In this document: positions 39,638 to 44,615 of the stretch, piece by piece
Position numbering within the stretch: the first letter of the stretch is position 1
Layout: each line of letters starts with the position of its first letter
Position numbers and translations under genes: made by a program
Assembly: GCA_937934595.1 (NCBI GenBank)
Contig: CALGZA010000054.1
Location: forward strand, 1 to 44,615
Direction: 5' to 3'
DNA from: an uncultured Verrucomicrobiales bacterium
GTDB taxonomy: Bacteria > Verrucomicrobiota > Verrucomicrobiia > Verrucomicrobiales > Akkermansiaceae
Length of the DNA: 44,615 bases
The notes under the pieces: model-generated
Seen by the model: only the letters and a program-made list of their open reading frames with translations
Databases searched by the model: none
What the model was told of the DNA's origin: nothing

Positions 39638-39907
39638 ATGCCAAGATCACTTAAAAAAGGACCATTTGTTGACCAGAAACTACTCATCAAGATTGATGCA
39701 GCGAGTGAAGCTGGGAACAAGAAGCCTATCAAGACGTGGAGCCGTAGATCAATGATCACACCAGACTTCGTAGGCCTCAACTTTGCAGTTCATAACGGTA
39801 AATCATTTGTAGCTGTATATGTAACTGAGAACATGGTCGGTCACAAGCTCGGTGAATTCGCTCCAACTCGTATTTTTAAAGCACACGGAACCGTAGGTAA
39901 GAAGTAA
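39638..39907 (+). CDS. rpsS: 30S ribosomal protein S19
   Basis: 30S head protein near the A-site t[41 protein letters not shown] and [20 protein letters not shown] are diagnostic. Length 89. In nearly all bacteria rplV follows directly, but here an unrelated gene for an exported protein intervenes. Confidence 0.98.
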
Positions 39908-39933: not shown

Positions 39934-40683
39934 ATGAAATTTAATGTCCATACACAACATATACAATTAACAAGAGCTTTGCTTTTCTTAATAAGTGTAT
40001 TTATGGTGTCAGGACTAGTTTCAGGGGATGAAGGTGGCACCGATGCTGTTTATGTTCGTCAGCTTGAGCAAAGTGTTAAAGCTTTACGACTAAAGAATCA
40101 GAACCTCTCAAAAGCTCTCGTTGTATCTAATCAGGATACTGTAAGAGCTAAAGGGAAGTTAAATAAAATCCGCTTGGAATTAGAAGCGCTCGGAACCTAT
40201 CCATTGGGTACGGATGATGAGCGTCTCATTCAGGCAGTGGCCAACCGCAAGGTGCTCGAGGATCGCCTCGCTAAGCTGGAAACAGCAGCGACGACTCTCA
40301 CCGCTCAGGTACGTGAATACCTAAAGCACGCCTTTGTAGCCGATGACCAAAAGCGCGTTAAACTCGAAAAAGAAATTAGAGGACTTGACGTGTTATTGGG
40401 AATCATAGATAAGCCGCGTCCGCAGATAGATCTGGGTTCATTATTTGAAGCTAAGATTATCGGTAAAGATCGCCAATCAGGTGCACTCATACTGAATGCT
40501 GGGGAGAAGCAGCAAGTCCGCATAGGAATGACATTCCGTATCCTACGTGGTAAGAGCCAAATAGCAGAAGCAAGGATTGCAGAGGTAAGACCAGAAATAG
40601 CTGGTGCCTTAGTAATCCAACTCGATGATCCAAACAACGCGGTTCGCTTAGGCGACATCGCATCAATCAAGACACAAAAATAA
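39934..40683 (+). CDS. Exported coiled-coil protein inserted between rpsS and rplV
   Basis: Not a ribosomal protein. Residues about 11-31 form a signal peptide or anchor (QLTRALLFLISVFMVSGLVS). Residues about 38-150 are a heptad-rich coiled coil (VRQLEQSVKALRLKNQNLSK, VLEDRLAKLETAATTLTAQV). Residues about 168-249 look like a small beta domain (LFEAKIIGKDRQSGALILNA, VRIGMTFRILRGKSQIAEAR, VRLGDIASI) resembling the C-terminal beta domain of some envelope proteins. No family is certain. It is cleanly spaced (27 bp after rpsS, 20 bp before rplV), in the same direction and with similar codon use to its neighbours, so it appears to be a stable operon member. An envelope role coupled to ribosome synthesis is inference. 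Confidence 0.85.
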   Translation: MKFNVHTQHIQLTRALLFLISVFMVSGLVSGDEGGTDAVYVRQLEQSVKALRLKNQNLSKALVVSNQDTVRAKGKLNKIRLELEALGTYPLGTDDERLIQAVANRKVLEDRLAKLETAATTLTAQVREYLKHAFVADDQKRVKLEKEIRGLDVLLGIIDKPRPQIDLGSLFEAKIIGKDRQSGALILNAGEKQQVRIGMTFRILRGKSQIAEARIAEVRPEIAGALVIQLDDPNNAVRLGDIASIKTQK

Positions 40684-40702: not shown

Positions 40703-41368
40703 ATGGAAGTAAAATCAACTTATAAATTCGCTCGCGTCTCCGCTAAAAAAGCCCGTGACGTATGCCGTGCTATCCAAGGCCTTCCAGTATCGTCTGCCCT
40801 AGACACGCTGAACTTCACACCGAAGAAATCAGCATTTCTAATCGGTAAGACACTGAAGAGTGCTGTAGCAAATGCAGAAAACAATCATGACCTTGACGCT
40901 GATGATCTCATCGTAAAGGAAGCAACAGTGGGAGTAGGACCAACATTTAAGCGCTTCAAGCCACGAGCTAGAGGTTCTGCAGGTGGTATTCTTAAGCGCA
41001 CAAGTCACATCTATATCACACTTGATAAAGCTGTTGAAGTAGCTGAACAGTCATCACCGAAGAAGGTAGCCCCGGTTAAGAAAAAAGCTGTGGCAGCTGA
41101 AACTGAGGCACCTGCTGGGTCACGCGGTAAGACTTATGAATCGGCACCAGACAAGGTAGATGACTTGAAGGTCATCAGTGGTGTAGGTCCGGCTATTGAG
41201 GAAAAGCTAAATGGTTTCGGTATTTACACCTATGAGCAGATAGCGAACTGGAATGCAGATAATGTAGCAACATTTGATGATCTGTTATCATTTAAGGGGC
41301 GTATTGACCGTGATGACTGGATATCTCAGGCTAAGGAGCTTAACACAGGAGGGGCAGATGCGTCCTAG
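40703..41368 (+). CDS. rplV: 50S ribosomal protein L22 fused to a helix-hairpin-helix domain
   Basis: Residues 1-112 are an ordinary L22 (YKFARVSAKKARDVCRAIQG, VGVGPTFKRFKPRARGSAGG, TSHIYITLDK), which lines the exit tunnel. A Lys/Ala-rich linker (about 113-150, SPKKVAPVKKKAVAAETEAP) leads to a C-terminal domain (153-213) with the helix-hairpin-helix pattern ISGVGPAIEEKLNGFGIYTY, then EQIANWNADNVATFDDLL, FKGRIDRDDWISQA. Similar domains occur fused to other proteins, including L21 in some Alphaproteobacteria. Total 221, twice the usual length. No frameshift or stop separates the parts, so it is one protein. The HhH could bind nucleic acid; its role on the ribosome is unknown. Confidence 0.95.
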   Translation: MEVKSTYKFARVSAKKARDVCRAIQGLPVSSALDTLNFTPKKSAFLIGKTLKSAVANAENNHDLDADDLIVKEATVGVGPTFKRFKPRARGSAGGILKRTSHIYITLDKAVEVAEQSSPKKVAPVKKKAVAAETEAPAGSRGKTYESAPDKVDDLKVISGVGPAIEEKLNGFGIYTYEQIANWNADNVATFDDLLSFKGRIDRDDWISQAKELNTGGADAS

Positions 41369-43535: not shown

Positions 43536-43757
43536 ATGAAGACTCACGTTAAAAAAGGCGACACTGTTGTAGTGATCTCAGGTGGCCATAAAGGCAAGTC
43601 TGGCAAGGTGCTCTCAATCAATGAGGCGAAGCAGCAAGTCACAGTTGAAGGCGTCCGTAAGATCAAAAAGGCAGTGCGACCTACACAAGAAGATCAAGAA
43701 GGTGGTATCAAAGAGCTTGATGGTCCTATCCATATCTCTAACGTTAAGAAGGCCTAG
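43536..43757 (+). CDS. rplX: 50S ribosomal protein L24, last gene of the operon
   Basis: Assembly initiator protein with a KOW motif: [58 protein letters not shown]. At 73 residues it is shorter than the usual 100 or so, lacking the C-terminal extension, but complete. In most bacteria rplE follows; here a terminator follows 30 bp later and the next gene is unrelated. Confidence 0.96.
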
Positions 43758-43786
43758 TGTTTTCTTAAAAGTATCATCTAAATTTA

Positions 43787-43814
43787 AGCGGCACCTTAAT
43801 GGTGTCGCTTTTTT
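43787..43814 (+). terminator. Intrinsic terminator of S10 operon
   Basis: AGCGGCACC (43787-43795) pairs with GGTGTCGCT (43801-43809) with one G-U, loop TTAAT, then TTTTTT. It lies right after rplX and so ends the operon. Confidence 0.92.
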
Positions 43815-43983
43815 ATGTCAGTATAAGTTAGTGGACATTAACCTTGGGGTTAGGGTAGTAAAACTTACCAACTAGCTGGATTAAAAATACCCGCTAAGTT
43901 TAGGTGATTATATTTCAAGTATACATCAAGACGAAGTTCACCCTTGCGGTATTTTGAGTCACCTTTAACGTTCGCCTAAAAAT

Positions 43984-44349
43984 ATGAGCATCACAGTAAC
44001 CCATATCATGTTAGGATTCACTGTCATATGTGCTAGTGTAGCTATATGGCATGAGATTTTTTGGTATCGCAAACGGTCATGGAAAAAAGCTGAGGGTGAA
44101 GTCGTTGATACCGTAGGTGTTTCAGATGACGAACGTCCTGTTATTAATTACACACATGAAGGAACTACTCATTCATTTACCTCTATCTATAGTGGAAGTG
44201 GGTGCCCATCTATAGGTGATATTACACAGGTAATTTATAATCCTAAAACTTTCCAAGCTGAATATTTCACTCTTTCCAATAGATGGTTTTTCACTATCAT
44301 CCCTCTGTTTTTCGCTGTTGTATTTGCTATTTTAAGCCCAAACATATAA
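43984..44349 (+). CDS. DUF3592 family membrane protein
   Basis: A short protein with a transmembrane helix at each end (about residues 6-25 and 98-117, WFFTIIPLFFAVVFAIL) and a small domain between (KKAEGEVVDTV, INYTHEGTTHSFTS, GDITQVIYNPKTFQAEYF), which is the DUF3592 layout. Function of this family is unknown. It stands alone after the S10 terminator, with 169 bp of non-coding sequence before it. Third positions are mixed, not T/G-biased. Confidence 0.75.
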   Translation: MSITVTHIMLGFTVICASVAIWHEIFWYRKRSWKKAEGEVVDTVGVSDDERPVINYTHEGTTHSFTSIYSGSGCPSIGDITQVIYNPKTFQAEYFTLSNRWFFTIIPLFFAVVFAILSPNI

Positions 44350-44390
44350 TATAAATATTCACTCATACAAATGAAGCCCAATAAAAATGG

Positions 44391-44458
44391 CGAATCGGGT
44401 AGGTAGCGGGTTCTAACCGCCACCCCCCACACCACCGGCCATACGGATCCGTAGCACA
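44391..44458 (-). mobile_element. Possible group II intron 3' end (domain V/VI-like)
   Basis: Read on the minus strand: CTACGGATCCGTATGG, GGTGGTGTGGGG, a hairpin GGTGGCGG/CCGCTACC, then CTACCCGATTCG. This order (CGGATCCGTA, GGTGGTGTG, GC-rich hairpin, TACCCGAT) resembles the 3' terminal part of bacterial group II introns carrying a reverse transcriptase. The domain V helix is not perfectly formed by eye, so the element may be degenerate. Identified from memory of the pattern. Confidence 0.4.
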
Positions 44459-44490
44459 ATACTAAGTGCACAATAGATCGGTGTGGAAAA

Positions 44491-44615
44491 CTAAGTTGGA
44501 TTTTTCAACCAATATATCTTCAATAGATGCATAGATTCACTCCAGGGAGCTTGTCGATAAAGTTGGTGACGTAGCCAGCGGATGAAACGTTGCGTCCTGT
44601 GACTGGCGCGATCGA
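44491..44615 (-). CDS. C-terminal end of an unidentified protein, cut by window edge
   Basis: Open from the right edge to a TAG at 44493-44491; 41 codons including TQRFIRWLRHQLYRQAPWSE and ending IYWLKNPT. Its position just before the group II-like 3' end would suit the end of an intron-encoded maturase, but the sequence does not look like a maturase tail to me, so it may be a transposase or something else. Confidence 0.35.
   Translation of the reverse strand, partial: DRASHRTQRFIRWLRHQLYRQAPWSESMHLLKIYWLKNPT

Follow-up and report, generated by a model that had tools for sequence, protein, structure and literature searches.

The gene order rpsS–rplV is among the steadiest gene neighborhoods in bacteria. 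Non-ribosomal envelope genes within ribosomal protein operons have a well-known representative in secY, which is located in the spc operon. FlgT, with which the protein described here shares a fold, is periplasmic, the location that is also predicted for the inserted protein. Among the proteins common to the PVC phyla, the signature protein CT421.2 is small, with approximately 53 to over 80 amino acids (PMC3444138), and another report describes the wider ribosomal cluster as stable in two groups (PMC8046335). In the uncultured Verrucomicrobiales bacterium studied here, an additional gene encoding a predicted exported protein is located between rpsS and rplV. The window, i.e., the whole stretch of 44,615 nucleotides that was analyzed, is contig C54 of an assembly of 3.15 Mb, and its genes are ordered rpsJ-rplC-rplD-rplW-rplB-rpsS-[orf]-rplV-rpsC-rplP-rpmC-rpsQ-rplN-rplX. 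The genus to which the genome belongs, referred to below as the same genus, is most likely Rubritalea. The features of the locus are summarized in the table.

Table. Position and support of the inserted gene, its parts, and its neighbors in the window.
Feature	Positions	Strand	Basis
rpsS (ribosomal protein S19), upstream neighbor	39638..39907	+	ORF list; PF00203 match in own genome
Inserted gene, 249-aa predicted exported coiled-coil and beta-barrel protein	39934..40683	+	ORF; genus, family, and phylum conservation; dN/dS
Residues 6–27, N-terminal hydrophobic helix, predicted signal peptide or anchor	39949..40014	+	AlphaFold2; hydrophobic segments of homologs
Residues 36–85, long helix, predicted coiled coil	40039..40188	+	AlphaFold2 pLDDT mostly 76–90; matches generic coiled-coil families only
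Residues 96–154, two helices, D...R...E...R motif conserved in family	40219..40395	+	AlphaFold2; alignment A1
Residues 173–245, six-strand beta barrel, phylum-conserved part	40450..40668	+	pLDDT above 90; fold and profile matches
rplV (L22) with C-terminal helix-hairpin-helix extension, the neighbor kept by the insert	40703..41368	+	PF00237 E 5e-36; HHH_5 E 1.4e-4

The original prediction, made from the letters of the window, placed a 249-residue frame with normal spacing and direction between rpsS and rplV, and this was borne out by the window sequence and the ORF list. The ORF is an ATG frame of 249 codons that follows the rpsS stop codon after 26 nt and precedes the rplV start codon by 19 nt, with all three genes on the same strand. 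Among the homolog loci, the median gap was 22 nt on either side of the insert. By its shared strand, short gaps, and conserved adjacency, the ORF belongs to the S10 operon. Promoter-like and terminator-like sites around the ORF showed no excess over shuffled sequence, and this result, together with the short gaps, is compatible with co-transcription. The codon use of the ORF, which had been called normal, is indeed so, but is uninformative: in the window, the codon adaptation index (CAI) to ribosomal genes was about 0.65–0.71 on the plus strand and 0.45–0.56 on the minus strand, with a value of 0.617 for the ORF (strand effect over positions 1–34000). Because codon bias in the window follows the strand, the CAI of the ORF is not diagnostic of high expression, and codon adaptation was dropped as an expression proxy.

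The surroundings of the gene show some further peculiarities. The C-terminal extension of rplV comprises approximately 75 residues and its HHH_5 match is sub-threshold; typical rplV frames in the phylum are approximately 115–150 amino acids in length. In two genomes of genus g63 (G253 and G296), rplV lies inside a 426-amino-acid open frame, which may reflect a long extension or a fusion. The ribosomal cluster stops at rplX, with no rplE after it in the window (43757–44615) or in two Rubritalea relatives (L006 and L007), and the gene after rplX in the window is weakly DUF3592-like.

In a single-sequence search, homologs of the inserted gene were found in each of the 12 genomes sampled from the same genus and in 183 of the 195 family genomes, and the named carriers include Rubritalea species and Akkermansiaceae (e.g., Rubritalea marina DSM 17716). 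Identity to the window protein was 61–81% in nine other genus genomes and 43% and 30% in two further ones. The dN/dS ratios ranged from 0.08 to 0.26 across 11 pairs, and the gene is under purifying selection. The residues D137, R141, E145, R149, and G156 are invariant in alignment A1. When the 12 family genomes with no match were re-checked for rplV together with six weak-match genomes, 15 of the 18, including all 12 without the inserted gene, had no rplV match whatsoever, so the 12 missing cases are assembly gaps and not gene losses; two of the remaining three (G014 and G015) carry the inserted gene in place. The order rpsS-orf-rplV was present in all family loci examined with ribosomal context except that of G004. 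In this genome, which belongs to the same genus, the region is rearranged: rplV has a different upstream neighbor, rpsS is on a separate contig, and the homolog, 30% identical, lies at another locus next to genes for a HAD-like protein and an Mpl-like ligase (neighbor names read from the sequence). Because the operon is split and the 30%-identical copy is elsewhere, the operon position is not absolutely required. The sampled family appears to include Akkermansia, and the family taken to be that of Verrucomicrobium carries the gene (L076 and L080), so that a genetically tractable relative with the gene probably exists.

Beyond the family, a 24-row profile matched 149 of 236 class genomes, a tally that is slightly high, as two of the matched loci (L106 and L108) lie outside the operon; with these set aside, nearly all the distant class-level loci have the order rpsS-orf-rplV. 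The spacing between the S19 and L22 domain matches, measured over 155 phylum genomes, fell into classes of approximately 55–190 bp (no insert), 375–490 bp (short insert), and 565–1160 bp (long insert), or the two matches were far apart or on different contigs. The inserts read in other classes terminate in the same barrel, and in hhalign comparisons homology to the window protein was found both for these inserts of other classes (98.7%, E 1.5e-16) and for the short inserts (98.1%, E 7e-14). When the same 155 genomes, 150 of which had a listed rplV match, were searched with a 52-row barrel profile, the barrel gene was immediately 5′ of rplV in at least 82 of the 150 (median of 46 bp to the L22 domain match), and the genomes without an adjacent barrel match give an upper bound on absence. 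This adjacency persists even where the barrel is as little as 14–30% identical to that of the window protein. Of seven rplV loci fetched from genomes with a separated rpsS, six had the barrel gene as the immediate upstream neighbor of rplV. Among the matches listed, no barrel gene was adjacent to rplV in many lineages (f10, most of f15, f60, f62, f66, f67, and others), so the inserted gene is not universal in the phylum, and in several lineages rpsS and rplV are adjacent without an insert. In eight genomes of g144, the best barrel match among those listed was away from rplV, representing a relocated gene or a paralog.

The barrel distances track the S19+L22 distances (Mantel r = 0.73, 0 of 999 permutations), and the overall distribution is consistent with vertical descent, interrupted by several losses and breaks of the operon, the insertion itself probably lying deep in the phylum. 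A single-genome insertion or a mobile gene was ruled out by the synteny and the distance correlation. The gene before rplV is an old, selected feature across much of Verrucomicrobiota, not a single-genome oddity: gene-order comparison found it intact throughout the family and in much of the phylum, and in place of the decayed relatives that an insertion peculiar to this genome might have had, there are intact ones at both levels.

In several families of other classes, a break in the S10 operon separates rpsS from the insert and rplV (G400, G405, G427, G451, G474, G477, and G496; L135–L148). Paralogs with the same plan of a hydrophobic N-terminus, a coiled region, and a barrel were also observed outside the ribosomal operons (L155:420–1232 and 1270–2094, L019, L020, L156, L157, and L158). 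Within the family they are arranged in tandem pairs, elsewhere they are single, and genomes that lack the operon copy can also carry them. Their barrels scored approximately E 1e-8 to 1e-14, and those of most inserts between rpsS and rplV approximately 1e-20 to 1e-31; the scores of the split-operon inserts overlap the paralog range.

The AlphaFold2 model of the window protein contains helices at residues 6–27, 36–85 (the long helix), 96–133, and 138–154, followed by the barrel at residues 173–245 with pLDDT above 90; with a low pTM (0.40), the model does not define how these parts are placed relative to one another. A homolog from another class was modeled with a helix at residues 7–36, a linker, a coil at 99–162, and the same barrel at 173–244, and each of the two models has one six-strand barrel. 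This fits the signal peptide, long coiled coil, and C-terminal beta-like domain that had been read from the window, the signal peptide being a prediction. A hydrophobic N-terminal segment was found in 121 of 127 homolog loci, and the N-termini are predicted to be anchor-like in four homologs (L111, L112, L118, and L120) and resemble cleavable signal peptides in many others. From these features, we infer an exported protein that is either periplasmic or anchored in the inner membrane. The short versions of 110–130 amino acids consist of a signal-like N-terminus and the barrel, without the coiled coil. The rod is thus dispensable in some lineages, and because the short lineages keep just these two parts, the hydrophobic N-terminal segment and the barrel constitute the conserved core. 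Across the phylum, the conserved positions are two glycines, the arginine of the VVDVR strand, and, close to the end, a GD. Structure prediction and profile searches of the C-terminal part, which had been suggested together with the original prediction, yielded a confident beta barrel of approximately 75 residues, of the FlgT C-terminal/F1-ATPase N-terminal type (Z 10–11), that belongs to no Pfam or NCBIfam family; the searches of these two databases returned generic or sub-threshold matches alone, and a PDB sequence search returned coiled coils.

The closeness of this gene to rplV could have a regulatory meaning, if the ORF were a SecM-type leader whose translation or export state controls the translation of rplV, and a predicted exported ORF ending 19 nt upstream of rplV would suit such a role. 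However, RNA folding at the orf/rplV junction was not clearly beyond that of shuffled sequences (z = −1.7, −0.2, and −1.5), the conserved part of the protein is a folded barrel, the last residues vary, and a homolog survives away from rplV. We regard a regulatory leader as very improbable.

The interpretation we favor, with a probability of approximately 55%, is that the gene encodes a lineage-specific structural protein of the envelope, periplasmic or inner-membrane-anchored and probably oligomeric, whose dose follows ribosome production. The product of this ancient Verrucomicrobiota gene would be exported by Sec and would combine a coiled coil with a barrel of the FlgT-C/MreC type. If the ORF is read within the S10 operon, the amount of product would track ribosome synthesis and growth rate. 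The coiled coil may multimerize and determine how far the protein extends from the membrane, and protein–protein contacts may be made by the barrel, by analogy with the FlgT rings, the F1-ATPase crown, and MreC. The narrower proposal of a phylum-specific envelope assembly factor, with its dose wired to ribosome synthesis through the ancestral S10-operon site beside rplV, is put forward tentatively.

The original prediction that an envelope protein is made in step with ribosomes holds to the extent that the operon has a predicted exported protein among its fixed members, but the split operon of G004 and the insert-free lineages speak against strict coupling. On the gene orders compared here, retention beside rplV after operon breakage would be the strongest argument for a meaningful linkage, and G004 and the gene-free lineages the strongest against its necessity. 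A serious rival, in our judgment less probable than the favored reading, is that an exported protein with a function unrelated to ribosomes or growth coupling once came to lie downstream of a strong constitutive promoter and has simply been inherited in that position. The homolog of G004 away from its split operon, the barrel genes located away from rplV in the g144 genomes, the same-plan paralogs outside the ribosomal operons, and the several lineages without the gene are all in keeping with such a passive position. Nevertheless, the gene mostly stays with rplV once rpsS and rplV part, and the adjacency survives deep divergence (barrel identity of 14–30%), whereas more frequent breaks would be expected at a purely passive site. 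The fixed linkage to rplV would also suit an accessory of the translocon or of membrane-bound ribosomes, close to a second idea in the original prediction, in which an inner-membrane-anchored protein works with translating ribosomes or with Sec/YidC on the periplasmic side, so that stoichiometry matters. The predicted anchor-like N-termini of the four homologs mentioned above agree with this, but many other N-termini resemble cleavable signal peptides and not anchors, and the Pfam, NCBIfam, and fold searches linked the protein to no known translocon factor, either by sequence or by fold, making such an accessory unlikely.

Returning to the structural envelope protein, an envelope gene held beside rplV across the phylum points to a strong requirement for the protein, at levels that may be tied to growth. 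If true, a dose-wired envelope factor would be a direct genetic link from ribosome production to envelope growth, and one new to the literature. We found no description of an S10-operon insertion in Verrucomicrobiota in the largely open-access literature searched. The protein, apparently unstudied, represents an unnamed family that merits a Pfam entry, and the gene is a synteny marker for Verrucomicrobiota. In this context, a study of the essential genome of V. spinosum counts 100 essential proteins with function unknown (PMC12283558).

Of the known systems, the C-terminal domain of FlgT (PF16538; PDB 3w1e and 8z5n) resembles the barrel of the window protein (Z 11.3 and 10.7) and that of the out-of-class homolog (Z 11.3 and 10.9), with an rmsd of approximately 2 Å over 74–77 residues in the comparisons of both proteins; sequence identity, however, is 11–22%. 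The window protein had no PF16538 (FlgT_C) match at E 1, L118 scored 12.8 bits against the curated cut-off of 27, and none of the six genomes searched had a match above this cut-off. The inserted protein also differs from FlgT in having a helical rod or coiled coil in place of the N and middle domains, and in being encoded in the S10 ribosomal operon, not in a flagellar context. The N-terminal barrel of the F1/V1-ATPase alpha and beta subunits has the same fold (Z 9.4–10.3; 9.8 for the F1 N-barrel against the window protein), but the inserted protein lacks the nucleotide-binding and C-terminal domains and is predicted to be exported, so probably only the fold is shared. Because the FlgT and F1/V1 matches differ by just 1–1.5 Z units, our claim concerns a fold type and not a family, and because the fold is common to unrelated functions (FlgT, F1/V1-ATPase, and MreC), it fixes no role.

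MreC (PF04085; PDB 2j5u and 6zm0) has the same layout of an N-terminal helix, a coiled coil, and a beta barrel, which raises the question of whether the inserted protein is a diverged cell-shape protein of the MreC type that acts with the elongasome. Foldseek matched MreC structures (2j5u with E 4e-4, 6zm0, and 7eft), and one homolog had a weak NCBIfam MreC match (E 0.003). However, the window protein has no PF04085 match and one barrel where MreC has two, FlgT is the better fold match, and the sole PF04085 match of the genome, on C49, is a canonical MreC (E 2e-39). The latter belongs to an mreB-mreC-mreD-mrdA-like cluster located elsewhere in the genome (L150), and the inserted gene does not follow mreB. 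Identity with MreC was rejected on account of this separate canonical mreBCD, and a diverged protein of this type is, in our estimation, a rather poor prospect. secY is near-universal and belongs to the translocon core, whereas the inserted gene was examined within Verrucomicrobiota only. From CT421.2, as that protein has been described, the inserted protein is set apart by its length and its predicted exported plan.
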